Source of the DNA: a virus
Virus record (IMG/VR): IMGVR_UViG_3300046328_000417
Span: 1 to 34,760 of that record
Direction: 5' to 3' (one strand)
DNA: 34,760 nucleotides
The notes under the pieces were generated by a model that saw only the letters and a list, made by a program, of their open reading frames with translations, did not search any database and was not told where the DNA came from. Of this stretch, positions 21,692 through 34,760 are shown piece by piece (the first letter of the stretch is position 1; every line of letters begins with the position of its first letter). The translations under genes and the position numbers were made by a program.

Positions 21692-22116
21692 TGTACAAGT
21701 TTTCAAAGAAATCTTTAGATAATCTTGTTGGCGTTCATCCAGATTTGCGTGATTTAGTGCAAGAGGCGATGGCATTGCAGATCATGGACTTTGCAGTCAA
21801 TGAAGGTTTGCGCGATCTCCGACGCCAGAGTGATCTATTCGCTGCGGGTAAGTCAAAAACAATGAACAGCAAGCATTTAAAGCAGCCAGACGGTTTTGGT
21901 CATGCGGTTGATTTGTATCCAAGTCCGATTGATATGGTTGCGGTTAATAAAGGTAGCGCAAAAGAGATTATTCGCTTCGGTGTTTTATACGGAATTATTG
22001 CAACACTTGCGGCAAAAAATAAAATAAAAATCCGTTGGGGCGGTGACTGGGACGGTGACGGGCAAACACTTGACCATACGTTTTTTGATGCGCCCCACAT
22101 AGAATTGGTGAAGTAA
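21691..22116 (+). CDS. endolysin, M15-type peptidase
   Basis: The 141-residue product is a zinc L-alanyl-D-glutamate/D,D-peptidase-like lysin that would cut peptidoglycan cross-peptides at the end of infection. Likely metal ligands are His62 in NSKHL, Asp74 in GHAVDLYP and His136 in DAPHIEL; the WGGDWDGDG loop (116-124) is typical of the family. There is no signal peptide, so it needs a holin to reach the wall. Length is normal for single-domain M15 endolysins. Confidence 0.9.
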   Translation: MYKFSKKSLDNLVGVHPDLRDLVQEAMALQIMDFAVNEGLRDLRRQSDLFAAGKSKTMNSKHLKQPDGFGHAVDLYPSPIDMVAVNKGSAKEIIRFGVLYGIIATLAAKNKIKIRWGGDWDGDGQTLDHTFFDAPHIELVK

Positions 22117-23888
22117 TGGCATTTGGAAAATTAGGATTAGGATTAAACTTTACTGGCAGCATTACAGCGCGTCTAACTGACCTTGTTGCACGCGGTTACG
22201 GCGACTCCACGATGGAGTACAACTGGAGCCAGTATACGGCTGCGGGTGAGGCTGCGTTTATTGCAGAGGGCGCAAACTACTACCCTGGAACCGTGACGTT
22301 TGAGGATGGAGCGAAATCCGGATCGTACTTATCATCCTTGGTTGCAATCGCAGCGGGCGCAACAGTAACAAACCGCTGGGTAAACGATACAACAGGAACG
22401 CTTGCTGACGGGGCGCAGATAACTGCAAATGTTGTTGGCCTTGGCGGAACGTTAGAAATCGCGCCATTAAGTATCGGCATCAATGACCATTCGTCTATTG
22501 TTGCGGCTGGCGTTGACGCAACAGAGTTTGCAGCAAACTTTATATACGTTGCGGACAGAAGCAGGGCGGTTCGCGGGAACAAAACCATGTTAAGAACACT
22601 TGGGCGCGACACGGGCGGCAGCGATGCTGGGGCGAACATCGTTCGCGAAAGCATTAAACTCGCCATTGCATCTGGCGGCAACATATTGCGCGGAGTTGAT
22701 TGGTATGACAAAGGACTTACTGATCCAAAACACGGAACGCAAGAAACCACAGAGACGGTTGCAGAGCGAGAAGTTGCTATGGCGGCGTATTACACTGGAA
22801 ACTCAAGCGTTCGTATTCTGGGGCCATCTGCAACGGCCGAGCTTAGGACGGATGAAATTTATCTCACATTGACGCACGTTAACGGCACAGACATCACAGC
22901 CCCCTCTGCTGGCAATGGAGGCATTGATGCGACTGATGACGGAACGCAAATGGGAAGCACTGCGTTAACGCGGGTTAGTGCAACAACTATGAAGCTGGCG
23001 TTTCCACAGGGCAAGGCTCCTGTGGTTGGCTCTGTGGTCAAAGTATGGACTCCATACGGAGCAAACGGTACAGGCTTAAATCAGGCTGCGCCTGACGTGG
23101 CAAAAGATAATTCATCTTGGACGTTACCAATCCAGTCCGATATTGTTACCGCGACAAACGGAGACCCGTTCCAAACATTAAGCGCTCTTGTCCTTTACTG
23201 GGATGCCAGAGGCTCTGTTAAAACCCTAACGGCTGGAACAGAGCTTGATGGGCTAGCTAAAATTGCCGGTTCTGTTTCTGGAATAGCGGAAGTGGCTGCT
23301 GGCGATCATGCCACTTGGAGCGCGTCTGGGTTTAAAGGCAAAGGCTCTCTACTGATGAGGGCCGAGACAGACATTAACTATTCTGCCGCGTTCACTGCTG
23401 GCGGCACGCACTGCATCATGATGGCTCTTAAAATGCCAGCTTCTATGGCCGGTGCAAACTCTAACATGGCGGCATTTGCAAACTCTGGCGGCTCTACAGA
23501 CACACAGGCTCGATGGACGTTTGCCTCTGATAACGCCCTATACTGGACAAACAACGAAGCGTCTGCTGCGGAGAAAATAACGCCAGCACTGACGGGTAGC
23601 CAAGTTATATATATATGCCATCAATTCGTGGATATAAATACCTGCAACGTTTATATTATGATTGAAGGAGACCCTACCTATACAGACTGGTCAACTCCAT
23701 ACAAAACATTCGATCCGCGCAATACAACTGATTATGAATCGCAAACCTATATCACCATAGGAGGACGTTCTGCTGCTGAGGACGGAACGCTCAATCTTGA
23801 AATGGCAGCCTGGGCGCACACGACATCTGTTCTTTCATCTAGCGACCGCGCTACTTGTTTGGCGTATTGGATTTCAAGGTTTACTTAA
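22116..23888 (+). CDS. SGNH-hydrolase/lectin-like protein (tailspike or esterase)
   Basis: The 590-residue product has an N-terminal SGNH/GDSL-hydrolase arrangement: GYGDSTME with nucleophile Ser31, a glycine block near GAKSGSY, IGIND with Asn123, and LTDPKHG with Asp203 and His206, i.e. all four blocks in order. Residues about 240-330 form a beta-sandwich-like linker. The C-terminal ~220 residues (TFASDNALYWTNN ... YITIGGRSAAEDGTLNLEMA) look like a concanavalin/LamG-type lectin. In phages such esterases remove acetyl groups from surface polysaccharide. It is the last gene of the late operon, after the endolysin. Activity is inferred from residues only. Confidence 0.68.
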   Translation: MAFGKLGLGLNFTGSITARLTDLVARGYGDSTMEYNWSQYTAAGEAAFIAEGANYYPGTVTFEDGAKSGSYLSSLVAIAAGATVTNRWVNDTTGTLADGAQITANVVGLGGTLEIAPLSIGINDHSSIVAAGVDATEFAANFIYVADRSRAVRGNKTMLRTLGRDTGGSDAGANIVRESIKLAIASGGNILRGVDWYDKGLTDPKHGTQETTETVAEREVAMAAYYTGNSSVRILGPSATAELRTDEIYLTLTHVNGTDITAPSAGNGGIDATDDGTQMGSTALTRVSATTMKLAFPQGKAPVVGSVVKVWTPYGANGTGLNQAAPDVAKDNSSWTLPIQSDIVTATNGDPFQTLSALVLYWDARGSVKTLTAGTELDGLAKIAGSVSGIAEVAAGDHATWSASGFKGKGSLLMRAETDINYSAAFTAGGTHCIMMALKMPASMAGANSNMAAFANSGGSTDTQARWTFASDNALYWTNNEASAAEKITPALTGSQVIYICHQFVDINTCNVYIMIEGDPTYTDWSTPYKTFDPRNTTDYESQTYITIGGRSAAEDGTLNLEMAAWAHTTSVLSSSDRATCLAYWISRFT

Positions 23889-23895
23889 AAAGAAA

Positions 23896-23922
23896 CCCCC
23901 GCCATCGGGAGAGACGCGGGGG
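23896..23922 (+). terminator. GC-rich hairpin at end of late operon
   Basis: CCCCCGC (23896-23902) pairs with GCGGGGG (23916-23922) around a 13-base loop, eight bases after the last late gene. Only a weak T-rich stretch (TTTTA at 23931) follows, some distance away. It is stable enough to end or protect the late message, but termination efficiency is uncertain. Confidence 0.55.
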
Positions 23923-23971
23923 CTAGTGAGTTTTACTTCTGGGGAATATAGATGAACGAACAATCTATAGT

Positions 23972-24000
23972 TTTATTTTAGTCACGCTTTGTGCTAAAAT
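23972..24000 (+). promoter_or_regulatory. extended -10 promoter candidate
   Basis: TGCTAAAAT (23992-24000) is a good extended -10, with only a poor TTTATT -35 at 23972-23977. It lies between the late-operon hairpin and the spanin genes and would let lysis accessory genes be expressed separately. Tentative. Confidence 0.35.
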
Positions 24001-24023
24001 GCAAGTAGAAAAAGGAGATTATA

Positions 24024-24254
24024 ATGGAACACGCACTAAACATTTTTTTGAATTTCTTGGCATCCGAACAAGGCGTCGCTACTTTGGCTTTATTTATCGG
24101 CTGGCTTCTCCCTACTCCTCTTAAAATCCTGAGCGATCTCGCGAAGAAAACGCCAACGGAAGAAGACGACGCGCTGCTTGCAAAGGTCGATAAAAAAGAA
24201 GCCGCTCTTAAAGCTGCGAAGAAAATCTCTGAGCTTGCCAAAAAGAAAAAGTAA
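24024..24254 (+). CDS. small membrane protein, lysis-associated
   Basis: The 76-residue product has one hydrophobic stretch (about 17-33, GVATLALFIGWLLP) and a long Lys/Glu/Ala helix ending in four lysines. An excellent AAAGGAGA site precedes the ATG. It sits just before the spanin genes, so a holin or anti-holin role is possible. The single span and charged cytoplasmic tail parallel the candidate at 21431-21691; only one of them, or both, may be holins. Confidence 0.6.
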   Translation: MEHALNIFLNFLASEQGVATLALFIGWLLPTPLKILSDLAKKTPTEEDDALLAKVDKKEAALKAAKKISELAKKKK

Positions 24255-24523
24255 TGAGTGGTTGCAGGATCGGCAAGATCAGTTTTAAGTCCGGCGGGTC
24301 AATTCATGTTTTAAAAACAGAACCGAGGAGCGATCTCCATTATTCTGTCGATAGAATGGCGGAAGCTTGCGCCGATAAAGATGCTATCTTTGCGTTTTTT
24401 GGCGTAATGCACAAAGACAGGACGGTAGCGGCAGGGTGGCCATACAAAGCAGGGATTACAAACGCCGATATACTTGGCGCGGTTGGTGAGGTCAAAAGGC
24501 GACTTATTGAGGGCGAGTGTTGA
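24254..24523 (+). CDS. hypothetical protein (89 aa)
   Basis: The product begins MSGCRIGKISFKSGGSIHVL and has an alpha/beta pattern with no membrane segment, which sets it apart from its lysis neighbours. Start overlaps the preceding stop as TAATG, and the next gene begins one base after its stop. I do not recognise a motif. Genes of this kind between holin-like and spanin genes are often unrelated passengers. Confidence 0.65.
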   Translation: MSGCRIGKISFKSGGSIHVLKTEPRSDLHYSVDRMAEACADKDAIFAFFGVMHKDRTVAAGWPYKAGITNADILGAVGEVKRRLIEGEC

Positions 24524-24524
24524 A

Positions 24525-24776
24525 ATGAACCCGAAGTTTGTTATCGGGATAGTCGGTGTTGTATTCGCAATCGTCTTTGGCGGAGCTATGACAGCATCCT
24601 ACCACCTCGGGCGAGCCAATAAGGAAAAGGAATATGCGGACACGGCTGTCTTGGCGTCAAAGAAAGCATCAACCAATCTGGAGAAAATCCAAAATGAGAC
24701 ACAAAAGATGGAGCCTGCTGCTATTGACGCTGATCTTGCTAAGCTCGGCATCATGCGCGAGAGTACAGATCGTTGA
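24525..24776 (+). CDS. Rz: i-spanin (Rz-like)
   Basis: The 83-residue product starts MNPKFVIGIVGVVFAIVFGG, giving one N-terminal membrane anchor (about 4-24), and continues as a charged periplasmic helix (NKEKEYADTAVLASKKAS). With the nested lipoprotein gene in the next frame this is the classic Rz/Rz1 arrangement: the inner-membrane and outer-membrane partners join to fuse the envelope membranes in the last step of lysis. It is shorter than lambda Rz. ATG 24525 is chosen because GAGGG is upstream and an earlier in-frame start lies inside the preceding gene. Confidence 0.8.
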   Translation: MNPKFVIGIVGVVFAIVFGGAMTASYHLGRANKEKEYADTAVLASKKASTNLEKIQNETQKMEPAAIDADLAKLGIMRESTDR

Positions 24777-24885
24777 TACGGCCTGCCAGTCTATGCCACG
24801 CGGGACTATCCACATAGAGGATACGTTAAAGACAAAAAGCTGGATGAGGACGTATGAAGTTAATCGGCGGAGTAGGTGTCTCTAA
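24694..24885 (+). CDS. Rz1: o-spanin (Rz1-like lipoprotein), nested
   Basis: The 63-residue frame lies out of register inside and beyond the i-spanin gene. It begins MRHKRWSLLLLTLILLSSAS and continues with Cys21, a lipoprotein signal peptide whose -3 residue is Ser rather than the usual Leu. GGAG lies at 24680-24683, ten bases before the ATG. Such nested lipoproteins are diagnostic of spanin pairs. It is unusual in having little proline. It ends four bases into a convergent minus-strand gene. Confidence 0.78.
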   Translation: MRHKRWSLLLLTLILLSSASCARVQIVDTACQSMPRGTIHIEDTLKTKSWMRTYEVNRRSRCL

Positions 24886-25052
24886 TCCAAATACGGAATG
24901 AACGGGTTGAGGCTCAATCTACCAACGCCGCCGAGCTGTTTATCCGGTTCGATGAGTGTCTCGATACCGTCCTGCTTTGCGACTTCTCTTGCAAGCTCAG
25001 GGTCGTCTGTGTATGCCAAAGTTCTGCCGTTAAACAAGATCGTTATGGTCAT
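24882..25052 (-). CDS. small hypothetical protein (56 aa)
   Basis: The frame reads MTITILFNGRTLAYTDDPEL, continuing with AREVAKQDG and ending NPFIPYLD. It has an alpha/beta pattern and a composition typical of a real small protein, and ends four bases inside the o-spanin gene on the other strand, so the two transcription units meet here. There is no obvious ribosome-binding site; a TATGCT element just upstream (about 25069-25064) raises the possibility of a near-leaderless message. No recognised family. Confidence 0.55.
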   Translation of the reverse strand: MTITILFNGRTLAYTDDPELAREVAKQDGIETLIEPDKQLGGVGRLSLNPFIPYLD

Positions 25053-25101
25053 ACAGTGAGTGTAGCATAATTTGCGGTCTCAATCCACAAAGTTCAATCC
25101 G

Positions 25102-25197
25102 TCAATGTACGCCGGATCGCGCCGCACTTAAATCTAACTCGCCGTCAATATCATGGGGTTTGATTAATTCTAATATCTGCGCTTTAAAATCTTCCAT
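25102..25197 (-). CDS. micro-gene (31 aa)
   Basis: The frame reads MEDFKAQILELIKPHDIDGE, then LDLSAARSGVH. Its ATG overlaps the stop of the upstream gene as TAATG, and GGAG lies just before in that gene. The product is an acidic helix. The tight coupling argues for translation. No family. Confidence 0.45.
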   Translation of the reverse strand: MEDFKAQILELIKPHDIDGELDLSAARSGVH

Positions 25198-25439
25198 TAC
25201 TCCATCTCCTTAATTTTCTCTATTGCTGCGTCAATGGCGGCGTTGTGTGCCCACTCGACGGTTCCAACTGGACTAAGCTTCATCCCCTCCAACATCTCAA
25301 TCAGCGCGGCTTCGGAGTGGTATGTATCCTTGTATGTCGGAACCGTTCTTGTGTCATTATCCATGACACTAAAAAACCATTCGGACATAGGGGCGGGCGC
25401 ATAGAAATGCCCCAGTCTTATAACTTTCGGCATACTCAT
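25197..25439 (-). CDS. hypothetical protein (80 aa)
   Basis: The product begins MSMPKVIRLGHFYAPAPMSE and includes WFFSVMDNDTRTVPTYKD and EAALIEMLEGMKLSPVGT. ATG 25439 is chosen because it overlaps the upstream stop as ATGA; a longer frame would run into that gene. No membrane segment. It resembles small cytosolic phage accessory proteins, without a nameable family. Confidence 0.6.
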   Translation of the reverse strand: MSMPKVIRLGHFYAPAPMSEWFFSVMDNDTRTVPTYKDTYHSEAALIEMLEGMKLSPVGTVEWAHNAAIDAAIEKIKEME

Positions 25440-25681
25440 TCCGCACCGCCTTTCAGGGCTTGAGTAGCTATAAATGCACAATATTCAAGAGCTTGTGTAA
25501 ACCCGTATTCCGCGCCATCATATCTGTCAGATATGCAGCGATCTTCTACCCCACAATGAAGCCCATGCATATACTCGCCAATAGGCTCAGGCCCTGTAAC
25601 AATTTCCCCCAAAGCCTGACGCAGCCGCTTGTTTTCAGCGTGCAACCGTTCAATCTCGGCTTGTGCTTTTGTGATGTTCAT
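25436..25681 (-). CDS. hypothetical protein with N-terminal coiled coil (81 aa)
   Basis: Residues 1-27 (MNITKAQAEIERLHAENKRL) form a short leucine-zipper-like coiled coil that suggests dimerisation. The rest holds four cysteines, two of them close together (HCGVEDRC), and an aromatic segment. Proteins of this build are common in phage early regions. It overlaps the next gene as ATGA. Function unknown. Confidence 0.6.
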   Translation of the reverse strand: MNITKAQAEIERLHAENKRLRQALGEIVTGPEPIGEYMHGLHCGVEDRCISDRYDGAEYGFTQALEYCAFIATQALKGGAE

Positions 25682-25682
25682 T

Positions 25683-25877
25683 TTACTTTACTCCAACAAC
25701 TGCGGTGTCTGATTTAACTGAAATTGCGTCTTCAACACAATACGCCCTCACGTTCTTGTTTTCCCGGACAGAAAATAAAGCTGTTCGACAGGCGGCTTCG
25801 CTGTGAAATTGGTGCGTAACCCCTACACCAGAGTTAAAATTAATACCGACAATTATTAAAACCCATACTTTAATCAT
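25683..25877 (-). CDS. small exported or membrane protein (64 aa)
   Basis: The N-terminus MIKVWVLIIVGINFNSGVGV is a hydrophobic signal/anchor, followed by FHSEAACRTALFSV and RAYCVEDA with two cysteines that could pair in the periplasm. This W-LII ... EF.S...C ... CV pattern recurs in short phage proteins of unknown role. An attractive guess is superinfection exclusion by an envelope protein, but nothing in the sequence proves it. Confidence 0.6.
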   Translation of the reverse strand: MIKVWVLIIVGINFNSGVGVTHQFHSEAACRTALFSVRENKNVRAYCVEDAISVKSDTAVVGVK

Positions 25878-25904
25878 TTTCTATCCTTTCAAAAATTGGA
25901 GTGG

Positions 25905-25923
25905 GGCAGACTTCCGGTCTGCC
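25905..25923 (-). terminator. hairpin between small genes (weak terminator or processing site)
   Basis: A perfect 7-bp stem GGCAGAC / GTCTGCC with a five-base loop lies in the gap between two genes of the leftward cluster. On the minus strand a short T run (ATTTTT, about 25896-25891) begins eight bases after the stem, further than ideal for a terminator. Confidence 0.4.
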
Positions 25924-25929
25924 AGCTGG

Positions 25930-26226
25930 TTAACCCCCCACATCCTCTTCACAAACATTGACCGCGCAGTGATCGTGCAGCCATTTCGTTATTACTCCGC
26001 CAGTGCCTACCAGTGCCAGCACAAGGACAACTACAAAGGCAATCTTCAGTATCCTGCGGTCATGCTCGCCCTGCGCGTCAAGTTGTAGCTTGAGATTATC
26101 CGCTTCCTCTTTGGTGTCAAAGCTTGCAACGGTCTGCATCGCAGCCCCGTCAAGCGTCATCACGTGCTTGCACACGTACCATGGCGGTTGTTCCCCAAAG
26201 AATTTACGTACTGAATAGCTGCTCAT
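25930..26226 (-). CDS. membrane protein (98 aa)
   Basis: The product starts MSSYSVRKFFGEQPPWYVCK and has one strong transmembrane segment at about residues 60-82 (LKIAFVVVLVLALVGTGGVI), preceded by a charged helix (KEEADNLKLQLDAQGEHDRR) and followed by a short tail with two cysteines (HCAVNVCEED). Start overlaps the preceding stop as ATGA. An inner-membrane protein with about 60 cytoplasmic residues; role unknown. Confidence 0.6.
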   Translation of the reverse strand: MSSYSVRKFFGEQPPWYVCKHVMTLDGAAMQTVASFDTKEEADNLKLQLDAQGEHDRRILKIAFVVVLVLALVGTGGVITKWLHDHCAVNVCEEDVGG

Positions 26227-26489
26227 TTCGATTGCTCATGCATCATACCATGACCATGAGCTATTAGCTCTAAAGCCTCTCCTATTTCCTCCCACAATTC
26301 TGGCCGCTTGTCACGTATAAAGCCCAAAGCGTATCCTGATGCCATAGCAAGCCCCAATCCGAACCCATCGAAATTAGGAGCCGTTGCCGCCCATTCGCTC
26401 GCTATTATTCGCGCTTTTTCTTGACACTCATCAAACGTTTCACGTTCAAAAACTGCCGTCAATGGAAACTCAATTACGTTTTCACTCAT
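26223..26489 (-). CDS. hypothetical protein (88 aa)
   Basis: The product begins MSENVIEFPLTAVFERETFD and contains an amphipathic Gly/Ala segment (GFGLGLAMASGYALGFI) and a helical end with HGHGMMHEQ. ATG 26489 is preceded by GGAGG and overlaps the upstream stop as ATGA; the four extra residues of a longer frame are not used. The MSENVIEFP opening is frequent in small phage early proteins. Function unknown. Confidence 0.6.
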   Translation of the reverse strand: MSENVIEFPLTAVFERETFDECQEKARIIASEWAATAPNFDGFGLGLAMASGYALGFIRDKRPELWEEIGEALELIAHGHGMMHEQSK

Positions 26490-26695
26490 TCTTTCCTCCA
26501 AATATACAAGCCCTCTGGCTCGCGCTTAGTTGTGATTTTAATGCCCGTTTGCTTCGATGCGCGTTGCAGCGTAGTGCGGAATGACTGGGTTAGCTGCTCG
26601 TTTGGCATAAACCATGCGGTTTCAGCATCAATCTTACCGAGAACATCCCTGCAAGCCTGTGCAAGACTTCGTTTGAGTGTTTTCTTAACTATCAT
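26486..26695 (-). CDS. small basic hypothetical protein (69 aa)
   Basis: The product is Lys/Arg-rich and helical (MIVKKTLKRSLAQACRDVLG, with SFRTTLQRASKQTGIKITTK). It might bind nucleic acid, but no helix-turn-helix or zinc motif is seen. The start overlaps the upstream gene and the stop overlaps the next one. Confidence 0.55.
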   Translation of the reverse strand: MIVKKTLKRSLAQACRDVLGKIDAETAWFMPNEQLTQSFRTTLQRASKQTGIKITTKREPEGLYIWRKE

Positions 26696-26802
26696 GACGG
26701 CGATGATCCTCCGTTATCGTTAGCAAAGAAATCCTCATAGCGTATTTGCATGACGTTATCGTTTGCCGTGTTTTCTTCTAGGAATGTGAGCAAGTCAGTC
26801 AT
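26692..26802 (-). CDS. first gene of leftward cluster (36 aa)
   Basis: The frame reads MTDLLTFLEENTANDNVMQI, then RYEDFFANDNGGSSPS. GGAG lies upstream of ATG 26802, and a good promoter candidate precedes it. It is acidic, opposite in charge to the next gene's product, with which its stop overlaps (ATGA), so a pair acting together is conceivable. No family. Confidence 0.5.
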   Translation of the reverse strand: MTDLLTFLEENTANDNVMQIRYEDFFANDNGGSSPS

Positions 26803-26831
26803 TTTTTATCTCCGTAAACTTTAATAAACAA

Positions 26832-26860
26832 TATATAACAACTTTAAACATATGTGTAAA
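26832..26860 (-). promoter_or_regulatory. promoter candidate for leftward small-gene cluster
   Basis: On the minus strand TTTACA (26860-26855), a 17-base spacer and TATATA (26837-26832) form a good sigma-70-type promoter in the short gap after the methyltransferase gene. Transcription would start about 20 bases before the first small gene's ribosome-binding site, making the cluster separable from the replication operon. Confidence 0.6.
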
Positions 26861-26863
26861 GGG

Positions 26864-27634
26864 TTAAATCAGTTTCTCTTGAATTATTTTTTGAGGAGGC
26901 TCTACAAAGAAATCCGGCTGTTCATAGGCCTCACGTATGCGCTTGCAAGCAATGTCAAAATAGCCCTCGTCCAGCTCAATGCCTATGAATTTGCGACCTA
27001 GCTTTACGCAAGCAACGCCTGTGGTTCCGCTACCCATAAATGGATCGAGAATTGTCTCCTTGTGATTCGTAAAGTCTTTGAGTATCTCAGCCATCAATTT
27101 AACGGGCTTTTCAGTTGGGTGTCCTCCATAACGCTGGTCGCCTTTGTTACAGTAATAAACGCCATGCTTTCCACCACCATTCCATTTGCTATGACCAGAA
27201 CTAGCCCACGCATTCACAAAGCATTCGTACCCAATACCAGGGCATTGCCCATTAAATTGAGGCATTCCGTCAGGCTTTATCCATAGACAGGCTCTTTTAT
27301 ACTTCATTTCAGATTCATTTATTTCTAATTCCCATGGCTTCACACCTTCAATAATACAAAACCCAATAAACCATCCATTAGATATTTTTTTAACCTCAGC
27401 ACAAAAAGGTTTTCTAATATCGTCTACGGCCTCAAAATTCCAAGCAGTAAACGGATTTCTTTTGTCTTTCAACTGGCGGCCAGTTGAAAGACGCTTGTTA
27501 TTCTCGTGCACTAATGCCTCATAGGGCGGATCGCAAATGACGTGGTCTACAGAATCAAGCGTAGGCATCACCTCAAGACAATCGCCCAAATAAAGCGTGC
27601 AATCGCCAATTATTTCTTTTCGCTTGTATGGCAT
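26864..27634 (-). CDS. beta-class DNA methyltransferase (N6-A or N4-C)
   Basis: The 256-residue enzyme transfers methyl groups from S-adenosylmethionine to DNA bases. Motif IV is DPPY (residues 35-38), the conserved HPTEKP is at 172-177, and motif I is DPFMGSGTTG (197-206). The order IV before I marks the beta class of amino-methyltransferases. No restriction nuclease gene is adjacent, so it is an orphan phage enzyme, likely for protection against host restriction or for regulation. ATG 27634 has GAGGAGG upstream. A perfect 29-bp palindrome lies within codons about 48-57, between motif IV and the presumed recognition region. Confidence 0.9.
   Translation of the reverse strand: MPYKRKEIIGDCTLYLGDCLEVMPTLDSVDHVICDPPYEALVHENNKRLSTGRQLKDKRNPFTAWNFEAVDDIRKPFCAEVKKISNGWFIGFCIIEGVKPWELEINESEMKYKRACLWIKPDGMPQFNGQCPGIGYECFVNAWASSGHSKWNGGGKHGVYYCNKGDQRYGGHPTEKPVKLMAEILKDFTNHKETILDPFMGSGTTGVACVKLGRKFIGIELDEGYFDIACKRIREAYEQPDFFVEPPQKIIQEKLI
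27464..27492. repeat. perfect 29-bp palindrome inside methyltransferase gene
   Basis: The arms 27464-27477 (beginning GTCTTTCAAC) and 27479-27492 are exact reverse complements around a single central G at 27478. The centre reads GGCGGCC. The mRNA could form a long hairpin early in the methyltransferase message, and the DNA could be a two-fold symmetric binding site. Confidence 0.9.
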
Positions 27635-27705
27635 TCATCCTCCTCAACCCACACCACCATTGCCGCGCCATCACAGGCTATGTATTGCAGTTTAGGTTCT
27701 TTCAT
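27610..27705 (-). CDS. micro-gene overlapping methyltransferase start (31 aa)
   Basis: The frame reads MKEPKLQYIACDGAAMVVWV, then EEDECHTSEKK. GGGGCGG lies just before ATG 27705. It overlaps both the end of the upstream gene and the first 25 bases of the methyltransferase gene, whose ribosome-binding site lies inside it. This suggests translational coupling to the methyltransferase. No family. Confidence 0.5.
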   Translation of the reverse strand: MKEPKLQYIACDGAAMVVWVEEDECHTSEKK

Positions 27706-27901
27706 TTGCCGCCCCTATTTCATTAATTGCTTTGTCCAAAAACTCACGCGCACCATCAAGTCCATATCTTTTCTGCAAACCTTCGATATCAAAGCGAGCA
27801 ATTGGAATATCATTGTAGATTAGCAATCTAGGCGTGTTTTCGTAAGAACCATCCATAATAATTTCAAACGCGCAAATTTTCTTTTCTTGTTTTGAAGTCA
27901 C
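27692..27901 (-). CDS. hypothetical protein (69 aa)
   Basis: The frame starts with GTG that overlaps the stop of the HTH gene (GTGA). It reads MTSKQEKKICAFEIIMDGSY and continues with RLLIYNDIPIARFDIE, an alpha/beta pattern, ending in a helix. No family recognised. It lies between the HTH regulator and the methyltransferase. Confidence 0.6.
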   Translation of the reverse strand: MTSKQEKKICAFEIIMDGSYENTPRLLIYNDIPIARFDIEGLQKRYGLDGAREFLDKAINEIGAANERT

Positions 27902-28089
27902 AATTGCGCCTCCAGATCCTCAAGCGCAGAGATAATACCCTGCATTTTAAGCGGTGGGATTTTCTTTACACCGTTCTCCCAGTTATAAAGCGTGCCTTCT
28001 GTAACGCCCAAAGCTGCCGCAACCTTACGCCTAGTTAAGGCCATTCGCTTACGTGCTGCCATTAATTCTTCACTAGATAGGTAACTCAT
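27898..28089 (-). CDS. XRE-family helix-turn-helix regulator
   Basis: The 63-residue product has a typical XRE/Cro-type helix-turn-helix at about residues 18-38 (RRKVAAALGVTEGTLYNWEN). It is one DNA-binding domain with no dimerisation or ligand domain. ATG 28089 is chosen since GAGG precedes it; four additional residues are possible upstream. It could bind the repeat words of the 582-1108 region or local promoters, which is untested. A candidate for the only sequence-specific regulator in the window. Confidence 0.75.
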   Translation of the reverse strand: MSYLSSEELMAARKRMALTRRKVAAALGVTEGTLYNWENGVKKIPPLKMQGIISALEDLEAQL

Positions 28090-28687
28090 CGTTTTCCTCA
28101 CTTTCTTTTGCTAATTTTGATAGTTCTTTGTTCATTGATTTTACGGCCTCAATCTCATCAGGCTCAAGCGCATTACGCCACGCCAAATACGACTCCACAC
28201 CACCAAGCGCAGATTCCTTGCCAGCTTCGTATAGAGCGTCTGTGTCAAGCAAGGTTTCTGGCTCTATGGACGCCACAGGCTTTGTATCCGTAGCTAAAGG
28301 CAGCACAACGTACTTCTCAACCTTGTGGCGGCTAACACGAACGGGCAATACCACCTGCTTACCGCCAGCCATATGGCTCATGTGCGTAAGGCGTATACCG
28401 CCAACCTCTGCGCCCCCCCATGTTACTTTGGGGTCACACACCAAAGTTATCGAGCGACCCTTAAGATCGACCTTACTACCCCAAACTTGGGCAATCACAC
28501 GGCGCATGGTTTTGCACGGCTTCCAAGGTTTATTACCCCCGCCCTCATAAAAAATATGAATAGGCTGGTCCGGATCTTGGAGTTTCTTAGCGTCGGCAAT
28601 CTTGATTGTTATGCTTCCTGCAATATCAGACGCATTAAGCTGGTCTGATTTTGCAATAATAGTATCTGAAAAATCTATAATACTCAT
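28073..28687 (-). CDS. recombination-module protein, ssDNA-binding/annealing candidate
   Basis: The 204-residue product begins MSIIDFSDTIIAKSDQLNAS. Its centre (PWKPCKTMRRVIAQVWGSK, then GRSITLVCDPKVTWGGAEVG, then GIRLTHMSHM) is a beta-rich, basic region I know from phage genes located next to lambda-exonuclease homologues. By analogy with lambda exo/bet and T7-like exonuclease/ssDNA-binding pairs, it may bind single-stranded DNA; there is no proof in the sequence. GGGG precedes ATG 28687. It overlaps the HTH gene by 17 bases. Confidence 0.6.
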   Translation of the reverse strand: MSIIDFSDTIIAKSDQLNASDIAGSITIKIADAKKLQDPDQPIHIFYEGGGNKPWKPCKTMRRVIAQVWGSKVDLKGRSITLVCDPKVTWGGAEVGGIRLTHMSHMAGGKQVVLPVRVSRHKVEKYVVLPLATDTKPVASIEPETLLDTDALYEAGKESALGGVESYLAWRNALEPDEIEAVKSMNKELSKLAKESEENDELPI

Positions 28688-28700
28688 GTTCGTTCCCCTT

Positions 28701-29372
28701 TTATAAAATGTCAAAATCGTCGTTACGTTTTGTCTGTTGTAGCCCCTTGGAATTTTCCTTGTACCTATCGACTACAGCATTAACTTCTTGCTCAAAAGCA
28801 ATCGCGGCCTCCTTGATCGCATCAATATACGTTGGGTCAGGATATGCCCGCTTAACGTACATAGGCAGTCCGCCGCAGTAGCTAATAAAGTCAAGCCATT
28901 CACGCCCAGTAACAAACAGCCCCGTTTGAAGCTGCAGCATATACTCACTCGGCACTTCATCGTTAGCAATCGTCTGAACCTGATATTTTTGAGAGCGCGA
29001 TTTAATCTCTACCAAACCTTCCTTGCGACCGATTAGGCCGTCTGGTGAATAGCCGATAACAAAACCAAGGTCATTGTTAGTGACAAAGCCAACCTGATCA
29101 ACGTGCCTATATTTCTCTGAGTACAGTTCAATAGCCAGTATTTCGTCTGCCATGCCCCTTAGCATATCATCGCTAATATATTGAGGCTCTGTGTACCCGC
29201 TTATACGCTGAGCCGCAATTTCGTATACGTGCGCTCGTGTCTTTTCGTTATTGGATGGTTTAAGTGTTTTTTCTGTAATGATATGCTTGATTTCGCTCGC
29301 GGTTAATATCCCGCAGCGCAATGCGTGCCATTCATCAGATCCTTGCTCTACATTGTGATATGTCGTTGCCAT
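28701..29372 (-). CDS. lambda-exonuclease-like (YqaJ) recombinase nuclease
   Basis: The 223-residue nuclease has the family landmarks in order: QGSDEWHALRCGILTASE (10-27), GYSPDGL with Asp111, VEIKSRS with Glu122 and Lys124 (the D-ExK active site), and YMLQLQTGL (144-152). Such enzymes resect one strand of double-stranded DNA 5' to 3' for strand annealing during phage replication and concatemer formation. GAAGGAAC precedes the ATG; it overlaps the upstream gene as TAATG and is followed by its likely partner. Confidence 0.93.
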   Translation of the reverse strand: MATTYHNVEQGSDEWHALRCGILTASEIKHIITEKTLKPSNNEKTRAHVYEIAAQRISGYTEPQYISDDMLRGMADEILAIELYSEKYRHVDQVGFVTNNDLGFVIGYSPDGLIGRKEGLVEIKSRSQKYQVQTIANDEVPSEYMLQLQTGLFVTGREWLDFISYCGGLPMYVKRAYPDPTYIDAIKEAAIAFEQEVNAVVDRYKENSKGLQQTKRNDDFDIL

Positions 29373-29563
29373 TATTTTTGTTCCTTCTTTTGCACGGATA
29401 TTTTAAAATACTTGCCACCCATATTTTCATGCTCATTAACCCAAGCACTAAGCCAGTATTCAACACCTTCAACGTTGATGTTGCCTCTATACTCTGCGTG
29501 CGTGTCTTGTGTTTTTTTATCGTTCTTGCGTAAAACGCCTTTGTTTGTGTTATCGTATGTCAT
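29372..29563 (-). CDS. DUF736-like small protein
   Basis: The 63-residue product contains YRGNINVEGVEYWLSAWVNE followed by GKYFKISVQKKEQ, the G-x-I-x-v-(n)-G ... YWLSAWV ... GKYfKi pattern of DUF736 proteins, common in phages and mobile elements beside exonuclease and recombination genes. The fold is probably a small beta barrel. Function has not been established to my knowledge. A TTGACA at 29610-29605 could be part of a weak promoter for this pair of genes. Confidence 0.7.
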   Translation of the reverse strand: MTYDNTNKGVLRKNDKKTQDTHAEYRGNINVEGVEYWLSAWVNEHENMGGKYFKISVQKKEQK

Positions 29564-29592
29564 GATTGTCTCCTTTACTTAAGATTATTATT

Positions 29593-29913
29593 TTATAAAC
29601 TATTTGTCAATTCTTTTTTTACATCTTCTGCGGATCTTGCTATAAAACCAAGCCCACCTGCCGCATTTACTAATGATAAGAATTTCACCTGTTCCGGCGA
29701 TGGCCTGCCTTTATCAGTTTTACACTCAATAGCTAGGTAGCGTCCGTCATGCGTAAAACCGATCAAATCCGCGCTGCCTGCTGCCTCCAGTCCTGCTCTA
29801 ATCTTACGTTTTCCATCCAGCGTTAGGAACATCCCCCTGTTATTCCGAAACACCGTTGCCCCGCATTCAGCAGCAGCAATCATGCAGTGCTTTAGGATTT
29901 CTGACTCTCGCAT
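29593..29913 (-). CDS. VRR-NUC domain nuclease
   Basis: The 106-residue product is a stand-alone VRR-NUC (PD-(D/E)xK) nuclease: GSADLIGF with Asp49, AIECKTDKGRPSPEQ with Glu63, Lys65 and Gln75. Short phage VRR-NUC proteins are typically structure-specific endonucleases acting on replication or recombination intermediates. It overlaps the upstream gene by 22 bases and sits in the replication operon. Confidence 0.9.
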   Translation of the reverse strand: MRESEILKHCMIAAAECGATVFRNNRGMFLTLDGKRKIRAGLEAAGSADLIGFTHDGRYLAIECKTDKGRPSPEQVKFLSLVNAAGGLGFIARSAEDVKKELTNSL

Positions 29914-30068
29914 AGCTCTATACTCCTTTTTGATTCAACGATTATTTGCTCCCCACGCCGCACCAGACGCACGTCATCGGTCGTCAGCCCAAAGCGTTTT
30001 ATATACACCTTTGCTTGTTCTTCATGTCCGATCCAGCCGGAGAATAAGGGGAATTTAGAGGGTATCAT
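29892..30068 (-). CDS. small hypothetical protein (58 aa)
   Basis: The frame reads MIPSKFPLFSGWIGHEEQAK, then YIKRFGLTTDDVRLVRRGEQ. ATG 30068 lies inside the end of the HNH-like gene, with AGAGG upstream; a longer frame is open but would overlap that gene more heavily. The VRLVRRGEQIIVE end suggests a small beta motif. No family. Confidence 0.55.
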   Translation of the reverse strand: MIPSKFPLFSGWIGHEEQAKVYIKRFGLTTDDVRLVRRGEQIIVESKRSIELCESQKS

Positions 30069-30480
30069 TGTTTTTCTTTTTACCTCTGTTTTTATAAATT
30101 TTAGCGGAGGAAATATTTCGACACGTTCTGCAATACCTATGCCCTTTTTTTGATATATAGGCACCTTCAAGCGAATGTCCTTGTTTGCAATGTGTTTTTT
30201 GTTTGTTGGATTCAGAAGTGATACTGCCCGCCGTTATCAAAACTATATGATCTGGGCAAACGCATAATTTGTTATTGCACGACATAGTCATTTGGATATT
30301 CATGTCAAAAACCTCGCCGTAATAAATACCAAATAAATACTTCTTGATATTTGTAGGTTTTTTTCCAACTCGCAAACGAGGAGCGCCCCAACTATAAAGA
30401 GCACCCGTCCAATTCCAGCACCCTGTTTCACCGTCAATCTGTACTTTTGACATTATCAATTCTTTAATTTCTTCACTCAT
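30055..30480 (-). CDS. HNH-like zinc protein, possibly catalytically dead
   Basis: The 141-residue product matches phage HNH_3-type proteins: ETGCWNWTGALYSWGAPRLR, then FGIYYGE, then MSCNNKLCVCPDHIVLIT, followed by a second zinc-like cluster (HCKQGHSLEGAY ... RYCRTCRN). In active members the finger begins H.C and contains NP.H. Here the first His is replaced by Met and the Asn by Cys, so catalysis is doubtful while metal binding may persist. Its ATGA overlap with the helicase gene makes it part of the operon rather than a free-standing homing gene. ATG 30480 is used. Confidence 0.72.
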   Translation of the reverse strand: MSEEIKELIMSKVQIDGETGCWNWTGALYSWGAPRLRVGKKPTNIKKYLFGIYYGEVFDMNIQMTMSCNNKLCVCPDHIVLITAGSITSESNKQKTHCKQGHSLEGAYISKKGHRYCRTCRNISSAKIYKNRGKKKNNDTL

Positions 30481-31844
30481 GCCTTTATCCCCTTAACTCT
30501 TGCCATTTGATGCACCCAGCCAGCAGCATAACCCCGCTCTTTTGCTATACGCTGCAAATCCGCCAGCGTCCGTGCCTGCCCTTGTTCCTGCCGCTTGGTT
30601 TTAGCCAGCCTTTCCTCTGCCTGCTGTTCTGCCTTGAGCATCTCCGGTGTGACAACAACGAGCCGCCCGTCAACTTCTTTTATTTTCTTACCATCCACCA
30701 CAAACCGCGCGTTGCAATAAGGGCAGTGCGTGCTTCCAATCTTTGACGGCTTATAGCAGGATTTGCACGTTATCAGGCTCATCGTGCGCTCACGGTATTC
30801 AACGTCACGTTTCCGCACATCTCCACTGTCCAAAACCCACTCTCTGTCCGCGCAGGGCAGGCCATGGTTTTCGTGGTAGCTATTGCCCGCCAAATCGATG
30901 ATTACAGCGTGTCCACCATCATCATAGCGTAATGCCCTACCGTTCTTCTGCAACTGCGTTGTGAGACTTCCTGTGGGCTGCAAATCAAGCATACAACGGA
31001 CGTTTACCTTGCGCCCTATCTGGCTGGCCAAATCAAATCCCATCTGGCACAGATATACATTAAAAATAATCTTTATATCTCCATCGGCAAACGCGCTTAT
31101 CAGCTTACGTCGCGTATCCTTTGGCGTGTCCGACTCAATGAACGCTGCGGGTATACCGTACTTATTAAACAACGCCTCCATAGCATACCCATGCGCCTTA
31201 TCGCGGCAGAACCCTATGGTTAGCCTGCCTCCAGCGTGCTTCTCCCATTCGTCCACCGGATCGCCGCCAAGACAACCCTTTGGCATTTTAACGCTAGGCT
31301 GCACAAGCGCATATTCAGATAAGAATTTGTTATCAATGAGCCAGCGTATAGACTGCCCCTGAACCATGTCATCAAACCAGTCTCCCATACCGTAGTTATT
31401 CTGCATGGCTGGTGTAGCGGACAACCCAACAACAAACCTGTTTTTCTCACGGCAGTCTTTTATCACGCGGTCAATCAGGTCGGCCCCCCAGTGTACCTCA
31501 TCAAGGAAGACGACATCAGGGTTAATGGCGTCTAGCCGCTTGACCAACGTATGCAGGCTGCATATGTGGGTTTTCGCCGCAGGGTTTAAGCGCATCTCTT
31601 GAGCAACAAAGCTATGCCTAATGCCGAAATCATTAAACGTGTTACCCATCTGTGTAATCAGGTCAATGCGCGGCACGACAAAAGAAGCCTTGCGTCCCTT
31701 CGCCTGACTGGCTGCTATCATGTAACTTGCAAGAACGGATTTACCCCCTCCAGTGGGAAGCTGCATCAACACGTTGCGGTTGCTTTTAAGCGAGTCCTTA
31801 AGCCGCTGAACTTGGTCAATCTGGTGGTCATATAGATTAATCAA
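30477..31844 (-). CDS. SF2 DEAD/DEAH-type helicase
   Basis: The 455-residue enzyme has Walker A PTGGGKS (30-36), DEVH (115-118), SAT (142-144) and motif VI QLQKNGRALR (297-306), plus four cysteines (360, 363, 374, 377) as a C-terminal zinc finger and an Arg/Lys/Gln-rich tail. It unwinds or translocates on nucleic acid in replication or recombination (UvsW/RecQ-like family by architecture, not closely assigned). It overlaps the primase gene by eight bases and is followed by the HNH-like gene. Confidence 0.92.
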   Translation of the reverse strand: MINLYDHQIDQVQRLKDSLKSNRNVLMQLPTGGGKSVLASYMIAASQAKGRKASFVVPRIDLITQMGNTFNDFGIRHSFVAQEMRLNPAAKTHICSLHTLVKRLDAINPDVVFLDEVHWGADLIDRVIKDCREKNRFVVGLSATPAMQNNYGMGDWFDDMVQGQSIRWLIDNKFLSEYALVQPSVKMPKGCLGGDPVDEWEKHAGGRLTIGFCRDKAHGYAMEALFNKYGIPAAFIESDTPKDTRRKLISAFADGDIKIIFNVYLCQMGFDLASQIGRKVNVRCMLDLQPTGSLTTQLQKNGRALRYDDGGHAVIIDLAGNSYHENHGLPCADREWVLDSGDVRKRDVEYRERTMSLITCKSCYKPSKIGSTHCPYCNARFVVDGKKIKEVDGRLVVVTPEMLKAEQQAEERLAKTKRQEQGQARTLADLQRIAKERGYAAGWVHQMARVKGIKA

Positions 31845-34578
31845 AACTAATCTCCTCTTCGTCTACAAACAAATCCTCAGAATTATTGATCTGTATTTTT
31901 TCTTCTACAAAATATTTAATAGGAAGCGAAACAGCTCGCTGTTTGTCCCCTGGCGCAAAGTACATTGAAGACGGTGTTTTCTCTGCTCCTGGCAAATTAG
32001 CAAACTGTTTGCCCCAGCCACCCTCCCATACAGTCCCGCGCATTAGGGCAGATAAATTTTTATTCGTGTTTCCGATGTAAACCCTGCCGTTTTCAACCCT
32101 GATAGAATATCCGTGCAAATAATTTTTTGCCGCTGATTTTTCTATGGTATGCATATGCCCAGAGGCGCAGGCAATTAGCTCGCCAATACTTAAATCACGG
32201 GATATTAATTGTATGCGAACCATGCTGGTGGCCATGTGGCGCAAAACGCGCTCTTGCTCTGTTTCCTGTTCAATAGCGGTGTGGTCATTCCATTCGTGCA
32301 AGTAAACAAGGTTTTTCGCCTCGTCTGGTTCAATTAAGCCGCCCTGTTTCATAACCCAGTATCCAGAAAGCAAAACAGATATTTGATCCGCAGCACGCGG
32401 GTCTTTAGTTTTCTCACGCGCAAACGCATATATCGTTTCAAAGTTTTTCTTAATATTCGGGTATTCTTCTATAAGCGTTGCCACTAATCGGGCTGAGAAA
32501 TTTTCAGTCAAAGTTTCCTCGACAATAGCCTGCAACTCTTTAAATTTTTGGTGTGCGTTGGCAGCTATATTTTTCTTTAGATTAAGCCTTGTGATCCGCG
32601 TTTCATCCGCAAAGTTTGTGATCGGCACGTTAATAGAAGCAAAGCAAAACATACTCTGTGCCTTAAATGAGCGTTGCCCGTACTTTGAGATAACGCCGCC
32701 CCGCGATGCTAACCGCGCAAGCTCGAGAATTGCCGGCATATTACCGCTATCGTTTGCTTTCTTTTCCGCCTCGTCAAAAATAACGGGCTGGACGTTGTAC
32801 CCCATGGCCTCCCTGATCTTTGGCTCTGTTGAGCTTCCGTCAAAATTTAAGGACACACCAGACAGAGCAAGCCTTATCCACTCAACGATTGTGGACTTGC
32901 CGGAACGTGCTTCACCAGTGATCCATATATGAGGACGCCACGGGAAGGCGGCGCACATTGGCGCAGAGGCAATCCAGCCGGCAAGAAGGATTCCAGAAAG
33001 CGCGTTTTCCCAAGTCAACAAAGTAAAAATCTTTAAAAACCGATTGCGGGCAGTAATATCAAGCGGCTCTGCCGGAAGGGGCATTTTGGGAGAGGAAACG
33101 TAAACATATTTTGTCTTTATGTTCTGCCATTGCTTCTCCTCACCATTCACAAATAACTTCTGCCCGTTGTTGTATATCAACCTGCCTTGGCTATCAGGCC
33201 ATAGGCCAGAGCCGCGAACACTATCCGACTCATAAAAAACACCACGCTTGTGGGCTTCTGTCATAAATTTATCGGCTATTAATGTGGGGATCTGGTTCCT
33301 TGGCACATGGCTAAATAATGATTCAAGGCTTGTGAGGCCGGCAAGCTGCAACAAATTATTTATTGAGTGGCTGGACGCAGTAAACGAAACGATCTGGCGT
33401 TGCATAAACGGGATATAAAAATATTTCCCCTCATTGAACCCAAGAATTTTAAACGGCAAACCAAAGTCGCCCATCAAGGTAAACTCGTTTTCATAGGCCT
33501 CTAATGGTGCAGCTTGCCTTTCGTCTTTGTCTACTGGGATTGGCTGCTTTTCAAATAAATTCTTAAATATAGCACTTAGTCGCGCAAGCCCATATATGGA
33601 GTGATAATCATTCCAATCTGTTGGCTTGCTCTTTAAATCAGCTGCGTCAAATTCAGGCCATATGACGCGCCCCTTTACCTTCATCGCTGCAGTTTGTGCC
33701 TTGTCTATACCGACGTTGTATAAATAACCTTTCTCTCGCCATTCAAACCAACGCTGGTCATCACCAGAAACATCATCCCTATCAACGTCCTGCGCCTCAA
33801 CCGGCTTAGGGTTTTTAAAAGTAAAAATGTCGCTGTCAGCGGCAATGATGATATCAGCGTCAGGCCGCTTCGCTCTATACGCTTGAGCGACTGCAGATAG
33901 GTTGCCCGCATTAAACGCCACAACAACAGGTTTACCCGTTGCTTCGCGAATGCTTGCACCAGTTGCGAACCCTTCGCAGATAAATATGACGCTAGGATCA
34001 TCGCCCTTATCAGCAATCGGATAAAACCCACCCTCTGTTTTTCCCCCGTACATAAAACGCTTATCCTTGCCCGTTTTATCTATGCGCTGAAGGCTTGTGA
34101 TCTTTCCGGCTATGTCGCATACCTTTAAAATCAGAAGCCCCTCTGTGTTGATCCTCGCCCCGTGTGGCTGTACTCCCTTTTTGTTAAGGTATGGGTGTTC
34201 GATTGCTGGCTGCGCAGCGTTCCACTCTACTTTTGCCTCTGCCGCGGCCTTGGCGTAATCCTCGGCCTGTTTCTTATCAAACGCAGCTTTGTCCGCAGCA
34301 CGGCGTTTCATGCGCTCGGCTTTTTGTTCAGGCGTTTCTTTTTCTGCGGCCTCTGGATACCACGTAAATATATCGCTGTCCTTGTAGCTTCTATACTGCC
34401 CAACTGCGCTGTCAAGATCGATCGTCAAGCGATAGCCACAAGATTTCTTACCACCTTTATCACCAATCGTTTGGTATGGCTTCCAAGATCCGCCTGTATG
34501 CTGTATCTCTCTTGAGTTAACAGCTGGCAATCCCGCAGCATCAAGCGCGGCCAAAAATTGCGATAAATAATCAGACAT
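31837..34578 (-). CDS. TOPRIM primase-helicase fusion
   Basis: The 913-residue protein starts replication by making primers and unwinding DNA. An N-terminal region (1-80) and a charged linker precede a TOPRIM domain with FICEGFATGAS (Glu202) and IAADSD (Asp248, Asp250). The C-terminal half has Walker A GEARSGKST (555-563) and Walker B VIFDEAE (599-605). The layout resembles the primase-helicases of P4-like and virulent phages. The start ATG 34578 overlaps the stop of the upstream partial gene (TGA at 34573-34571). No DNA polymerase is present, so host polymerase is likely used. Confidence 0.9.
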   Translation of the reverse strand: MSDYLSQFLAALDAAGLPAVNSREIQHTGGSWKPYQTIGDKGGKKSCGYRLTIDLDSAVGQYRSYKDSDIFTWYPEAAEKETPEQKAERMKRRAADKAAFDKKQAEDYAKAAAEAKVEWNAAQPAIEHPYLNKKGVQPHGARINTEGLLILKVCDIAGKITSLQRIDKTGKDKRFMYGGKTEGGFYPIADKGDDPSVIFICEGFATGASIREATGKPVVVAFNAGNLSAVAQAYRAKRPDADIIIAADSDIFTFKNPKPVEAQDVDRDDVSGDDQRWFEWREKGYLYNVGIDKAQTAAMKVKGRVIWPEFDAADLKSKPTDWNDYHSIYGLARLSAIFKNLFEKQPIPVDKDERQAAPLEAYENEFTLMGDFGLPFKILGFNEGKYFYIPFMQRQIVSFTASSHSINNLLQLAGLTSLESLFSHVPRNQIPTLIADKFMTEAHKRGVFYESDSVRGSGLWPDSQGRLIYNNGQKLFVNGEEKQWQNIKTKYVYVSSPKMPLPAEPLDITARNRFLKIFTLLTWENALSGILLAGWIASAPMCAAFPWRPHIWITGEARSGKSTIVEWIRLALSGVSLNFDGSSTEPKIREAMGYNVQPVIFDEAEKKANDSGNMPAILELARLASRGGVISKYGQRSFKAQSMFCFASINVPITNFADETRITRLNLKKNIAANAHQKFKELQAIVEETLTENFSARLVATLIEEYPNIKKNFETIYAFAREKTKDPRAADQISVLLSGYWVMKQGGLIEPDEAKNLVYLHEWNDHTAIEQETEQERVLRHMATSMVRIQLISRDLSIGELIACASGHMHTIEKSAAKNYLHGYSIRVENGRVYIGNTNKNLSALMRGTVWEGGWGKQFANLPGAEKTPSSMYFAPGDKQRAVSLPIKYFVEEKIQINNSEDLFVDEEEISFD

Positions 34579-34760
34579 GACGATCTGCCCCGCTCTTAAC
34601 GCAAATCCAATGGTGCGCCGCTTGGAAGTAAGTCTCCGCTAATTGGTCGTTACCATCTCTCCGCGCCTGATGACCCATGCCGTCAAGTTGCATGATGATT
34701 TTGTCTATATCTGTATTGCGAATTTTTAAGTCGCCGATGTTGGCCTCATAGACCTTAATT
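34571..34760 (-). CDS. hypothetical protein, 5' part beyond window
   Basis: The C-terminal 62 residues are visible (ends ETYFQAAHHWICVKSGADRHV) and are mostly helical. The stop overlaps the primase-helicase start, so the gene belongs to the replication operon. Too little is present to assign a family. Confidence 0.65.
   Translation of the reverse strand, partial: IKVYEANIGDLKIRNTDIDKIIMQLDGMGHQARRDGNDQLAETYFQAAHHWICVKSGADRHV

Follow-up and report, generated by a model that had tools for sequence, protein, structure and literature searches.

Nine small leftward genes in a P22-like podophage as a probable accessory end of the early operon

Introduction

Nine small genes, c1 to c9, lie on the leftward strand of a phage genome between its lysis and replication modules, and the question that they raise is whether they act together as an undescribed system or make up an accessory locus of an ordinary kind. 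The original prediction, which was made from the sequence alone, favored the former and ranked the cluster as the strongest candidate for such a system in this DNA.

Results

Gene map of the window

The window analyzed here spans the entire IMG/VR record IMGVR_UViG_3300046328_000417 (34,760 bases) and is a P22-like podophage. Its rightward strand encodes a terminase, a portal protein (phrog_156, 6e-124), a P22-type coat protein, an endolysin (phrog_465), and weak Rz/Rz1-like spanins. The leftward arm runs from position 34578 downward through a primase, a helicase, an HNH nuclease, a second nuclease, an SSB, and a YqaJ-type exonuclease, and continues with the adjoining phrog_11517 protein, an HTH protein, and a DNA methylase. 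The nine genes are on the same strand as the replication and recombination genes, continue them directly, and form the distal end of this early arm, where they converge with Rz1 (Table 1). The predicted location between the lysis and replication modules, and with it an early accessory role, is one part of the original prediction that we can support. Described phages are distant from this one. The portal and coat proteins reached at most 36% and 33%, respectively, in the annotated records compared, and a megablast search with positions 22000-34700 returned no match in the phage collection. The window holds no matches to Rfam families and no tRNAs.

Table 1 Coordinates of c1 to c9 and of neighboring features in the window. 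SD, Shine-Dalgarno sequence.
Feature	Position	Strand	Remarks
Rz/Rz1-like lysis genes	24522..24885	+	converge on c1-c9; weak spanin matches, best 0.0016 and 0.018
c9	24882..25052	-	56 aa; no SD; least certain gene; codon z 2.4; stop overlaps Rz1 stop
c8	25102..25197	-	31 aa; weak coding evidence, codon z 1.3; strong SD AAGGAG; TAATG with c7
c7	25197..25439	-	80 aa; acidic; orphan; codon z 2.8
c6	25436..25681	-	81 aa; N-terminal coiled coil and conserved motif (residues about 36-66)
c5	25683..25877	-	64 aa; phrog_5579 member; two cysteines; short hydrophobic N-terminus
c4	25930..26226	-	98 aa; orphan; one hydrophobic segment from residue 62
c3	26223..26489	-	88 aa; acidic, pI 4.6; orphan; SD GGAGG; codon z 3.05
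c2	26486..26695	-	69 aa; basic, pI 10.1; predicted fold (single-sequence model)
c1	26692..26802	-	36 aa; acidic, pI 4.1; orphan; SD GGAG; codon z 2.0; ATGA with c2
Gap before c1	26803..26863	-	77% A+T; candidate promoter TTTACA-19-TATATT at 26860-26830
DNA methylase gene	26864..27634	-	directly upstream of c1-c9; phrog_67, 3e-54
phrog_11517 protein	28073..28714	-	4.2e-40; anchor for finding relatives; alignment and 80 loci
YqaJ-type exonuclease	28701..29372	-	phrog_149, 1.4e-32; in conserved replication/recombination core; order kept in relatives

Several other features of the window were recorded. The end of the Rz-like gene is overlaid by a nested Rz1-like lipoprotein frame (24697-24885), whose stop shares a few bases with that of c9; no terminator-like site was found between these convergent genes. 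An A+T-rich divergent control region at 582-1046 carries four exact copies of ACGAGGTAAC in both orientations, TTGTTGACA-like -35 boxes, and a 25-nt inverted repeat (92%, 832-856/1022-1046), and looks like a set of operators or an origin. The ACGAGGTAAC repeat is absent near c1-c9. Within the methylase coding sequence, a palindrome at 27463-27493 has a 14-bp stem and a 3-nt loop.

Coding evidence for the nine ORFs

All nine predicted genes were confirmed as ATG-started ORFs, and the claim that start/stop overlaps chain most of them agrees with the six of eight junctions that are coupled. ATGA overlaps join c1-c2, c2-c3, c3-c4, and c6-c7, the c7-c8 junction is a TAATG, and c5 and c6 are separated by 1 nt. 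True gaps separate c4 from c5 (52 nt) and c8 from c9 (49 nt) and leave two blocks, c1-c4 and c5-c8, together with c9; the hairpin in the first of these gaps does not stand out (z -0.26). Judged by the phage's own codon usage, every one of the nine ORFs is positive and is the best of its six frames, with z values against shuffled bases of 1.3 to 3.7. Chained ORFs with an ATG and an SD cover 1248 nt of the leftward strand, an extent that was equalled in 0 of 1000 dinucleotide shuffles (mean 327, maximum 975). A simple gene caller called eight of the nine, two of them (c4 and c7) with a later start.

The weakest of the nine ORFs are c9, c8, and c1. We lean against the reading that these three are chance ORFs and that the real cluster has about six genes, but consider it a distinct possibility. 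The codon scores of c8 (1.3) and c1 (2.0) are the lowest of the set, and c9 has no SD and is the one ORF that was not called; however, an SD and a coupled junction are found for both c1 and c8, and the best-of-six-frames result extends to all three. Given the weakness of c8 and c1 and the missing SD and call of c9, we consider six ORFs secure and up to nine real.

Promoter candidates

The original prediction also gave the cluster a promoter of its own. The gap before c1 does contain a candidate, but in 19/500 shuffles of this gap a site scored at least as well, and promoter-like sites do not rise above chance in the region-wide scan (23800-30000, 5 found and 10 expected). A better-scoring candidate, TTGACA-17-TAATCT (29610-29582, 3/500 shuffles), lies just upstream of ssb, where an internal early promoter is possible. 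Early transcription would read through the replication genes into c1-c9, possibly aided by an internal promoter, and translation would proceed in the coupled blocks c1-c4 and c5-c8, with c9 uncertain.

The same locus in relatives

Scanning with the primase and with the phrog_11517 protein yielded 160 loci, which together with earlier ones make 179 loci (2.5 Mb); a portal scan of viral contigs yielded seven loci at 24-33%. The order primase, helicase, nuclease, YqaJ-type exonuclease, phrog_11517 protein is kept in many loci (18 drawn). The phrog_11517 gene was called in 87 loci, and the run of same-strand genes was traced from it. A strand switch closes 50 of these runs, among which L090 and L100 seem to be the same phage; the other 37 reach the end of their contig and were left out. 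Of the 50, 22 contain at least six genes, and 18 contain at least six that do not exceed 160 aa. Because the run is shorter than six genes in 28 of the 50 relatives, a small-gene locus beside the replication core is common, not universal.

Co-occurrence in relatives had been proposed as a check of the prediction, and no conserved c1-c9 set was found in the 179 loci. A tblastn search of these loci with c1-c9 gave nothing below E 0.027, and phmmer against the runs returned only c5, at 0.041. Gene content at this place differs among phages with the same replication core. Since these relatives are distant, with the portal at 36% at best, turnover of genes is indistinguishable here from plain divergence of small, fast-evolving proteins.

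As a side observation, the phrog_11517 protein adjoins the YqaJ-type exonuclease in 62/87 loci and in phages of very different hosts. Our guess is that it is probably the annealing partner of this exonuclease.

The c5 and c6 families

The description of the genes as unrecognised holds for seven of them, for which the searches made found no relatives, and fails for c5 and c6. The phrog_5579 profile matches c5 over positions 3-51 of 52 (4.2e-7; 2.0e-8 in a six-frame search of the window). This family contains gene 31 of Escherichia phage aaroes (53 aa) and gp122 of Acinetobacter phage BS46 (50 aa), which sit in runs of small genes. Common to c5 and these relatives are the short length, a W-L-I-I start, an F-S-E-x-x-C motif, and a C-V end, whereas a C-terminal extension of ∼14 residues is found in c5. 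The function of the family is unassigned, and a literature search on phrog_5579 found nothing. Of the 27 pattern matches from a contig scan with the c5 alignment, none was confirmed. Neither phrog_5579 nor c7 was found in 30 related virus records, a kind of search in which an empty result shows little; the same phrog_5579 profile does match inside the window itself.

A tblastn search of the phage collection with c6 found proteins of two Klebsiella phages (1e-6 and 8e-5), both of which directly follow replication genes. A scan with these two proteins and c6 as queries gave 64 confirmed viral contigs, and one of genome contigs gave 3. The 64 viral contigs carry the c6 motif GMGCGLEDRGITDRYEA (block GMGCGLEDRGITDRYEA...YGW..A.E) in otherwise diverse phage proteins. 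Scanned contigs and two phage records together give a family of 65 distinct proteins of 86 to 584 aa, with a consensus block of about EYHxxGMGCGLEDRGITDRYEAMxYGWDxAxE. The scan requires one of two motif patterns, so part of this conservation is forced; both patterns are matched by 40 of the 65 members, one only by 24, and neither by 1. A motif profile built without c6 placed c6 at 2.7e-11 among the 789 frames of the window, with the next frame at 3.4. Like the other motif proteins (e.g., Klebsiella phage Chronis gp49), c6 has the ∼30-residue motif, with a coiled coil ahead of it as in many members, but it is the shortest seen and deviates at several otherwise near-invariant positions (H42, V45, C49, and S51).

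Two of the three genome-contig matches read like viral-contig ones (L249 as L199, L250 as L214). The contig with the motif protein at L249:800-1294 bears the title of a Candidatus Berkelbacteria MAG; because the same stretch occurs as IMG/VR contig L199, L249 was probably misbinned and belongs to a phage.

While the two Klebsiella relatives match phrog_492, c6 itself does not at E up to 10. In Pfam, two of three c6 relatives had no match and the third had one below the cut-off and outside the motif; in NCBIfam, seven relatives had none. The core string GLEDRGITDRY was found in no paper of the literature searched, a profile search of PDB sequences with alignment A5 gave nothing below 0.24, and the structure model of c6 has a pTM of 0.36. 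An Ea22-like K/R-G-E tail was considered as a general feature of the family and was rejected, as only 2/65 members end in this way; LR..G occurs near the end in 35/65.

Members of the c5 and c6 families occur in other phages within runs of small genes that adjoin replication genes or other genes of early type. The presence of c5-like genes in 6/67 c6 loci versus 1/179 controls (E up to 0.2, in partly related-looking phages) hints that the two may be linked to some degree, which we treat as a lead only. In the early regions of enterobacterial phages, c5-like small genes lie ∼1 kb past c6-like genes at L194:7000-7164 and in L188 near 7330; the former matches phrog_3766 at 2.2e-20 and phrog_5579 at 7.6e-7.

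The orphan products

No match near the cut-off was found in Pfam or NCBIfam for any of c1-c9, and the best PADLOC match was partial (E 0.023). The searches made found no relatives of c2, c3, c4, c7, or c9. The best tblastn E values in the phage collection were 3 (c2), 9 (c4), 7 (c7), 4 (c9), and 0.05 (c5), with none for c3. For the very short c1 and c8, the comparison covered families (PHROGs, Pfam, NCBIfam, and PADLOC) and the fetched loci, in which the best match of c8 was 0.016 in L011. When viral contigs were scanned with single proteins, no relative of the methylase, c3, or c4 was confirmed.

Two products had been predicted to be membrane or exported proteins. This fits c4, in which the hydrophobic segment is strong (mean 2.60 over 19) and which we guess to be a membrane protein; the hydrophobic stretch of c5 is only a short N-terminal one. 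Pairs of cysteines are found in c5 and in the tail of c4. The single-sequence model of c2 has a helix-strand-helix-strand-strand order (pLDDT 76.5), and the nearest viral models are those of uncharacterised phage proteins (best TM 0.75 at E 0.014). Against the PDB, VIA gave a best Z of 6.0 with an rmsd of 7.1 (Stn1) and a Z of 5.4 with an rmsd of 2.4 over 56 residues (R3H domain). We rejected a function for c2 based on PDB folds, where matches were weak (best Foldseek E 0.15), and did not take phrog_200 'lipoprotein' (5.6e-4) or phrog_37142 (0.008) as an identification. As a guess, c2 is perhaps a nucleic-acid binder.

Discussion

We assign a probability of about 0.7 to the reading that the cluster is the variable distal accessory end of the leftward early operon, made up of small, individually acting, and probably dispensable early genes, and that it works like the exo-xis and nin regions of lambda. 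That no conserved set was found and that c5 and c6 come from separate families argue against one nine-gene system. The rank of strongest candidate for an undescribed system is not sustained, since unrelated small genes are found in the relatives and c1-c9 have no credible match in Pfam, NCBIfam, or PADLOC. The genes are mostly real, the locus is of an ordinary kind, and the view of it as a new system is corrected to an early accessory locus in which two of nine genes are tied to wider phage families. We infer the transcription from upstream, the dispensability, and the separate functions of the products, which would serve host take-over, regulation, or interference with the membrane or with defence. 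Among our guesses are that c5 and c6 are early modulators common to many phages and that the acidic products bind host proteins.

It is unlikely that the cluster is instead a co-functional anti-defence island, in which several products would counteract restriction, CRISPR, or abortive systems of the host and the upstream methylase would be part of that strategy. Small, mostly acidic proteins beside a DNA methylase would fit such an island, and phage accessory genes of variable regions can counter defences (PMC12373910). However, c5 and c6, the two that can be recognised, are not known to be linked to defence, and neither Pfam nor NCBIfam contained a homologous anti-defence inhibitor for any of c1-c9; the lack of credible matches, PADLOC included, is a weak argument given that these libraries are poor in anti-defence families. 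For single genes, an anti-defence or exclusion role is possible; for anti-defence, position and size are the only pointers.

Quite improbable, in our estimate, is a take-over island built around c6, whose motif would be a small transplantable module with one conserved target, either in the host or within the phage's own machinery for replication or transcription. Early proteins with nothing else in common, from phages of many hosts, would carry this module; c6 beside c5 would then be the widely shared effector and the orphans its host-specific partners. Least credible is superinfection exclusion, in which c4 and c5 would block later phages at the envelope and the rest would be passengers, as the c4 segment and the cysteine pairs might suggest, but no exclusion-protein homologue was found in PHROGs, Pfam, NCBIfam, or the c4 sequence searches and no lysogeny genes were seen in the families searched.

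The most interesting by-product, and the part that most deserves following, is the c6 motif family. The motif is strongly conserved in phages and is a cleaner target for functional work than the orphan genes, and no Pfam or NCBIfam model passes its cut-off on the members tested. If it has one target, identifying that target would account for a part of the early proteins in many phages.

Among known systems, the cluster can be compared with two regions of lambda. Like the exo-xis genes (ea22, ea8.5, orf60a, orf61, and orf63), c1-c9 are small, presumably early genes of a leftward operon, located past a recombination exonuclease gene, and each region encodes one protein that starts with a coiled coil and is variable beyond it (PMC7093339). 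The early leftward promoter drives the exo-xis region, whose genes shift the lysis-lysogeny balance (PMC7093339). In contrast to lambda, no integrase was found among the proteins searched in this phage, and c6 has a motif without a counterpart in the description of Ea22 in the available part of PMC7093339. In a comparison of family names, c1-c9 matched no family named for ea22, ea8.5, orf63, or the like in Pfam, NCBIfam, or PHROGs. As for the nin region, no nin homologues were found, and dispensability is established for lambda only, where phage with all nin genes deleted still formed plaques (PMC10695390); the likeness is that both are runs of small genes past the replication genes, early in lambda and presumably early here (PMC10695390).
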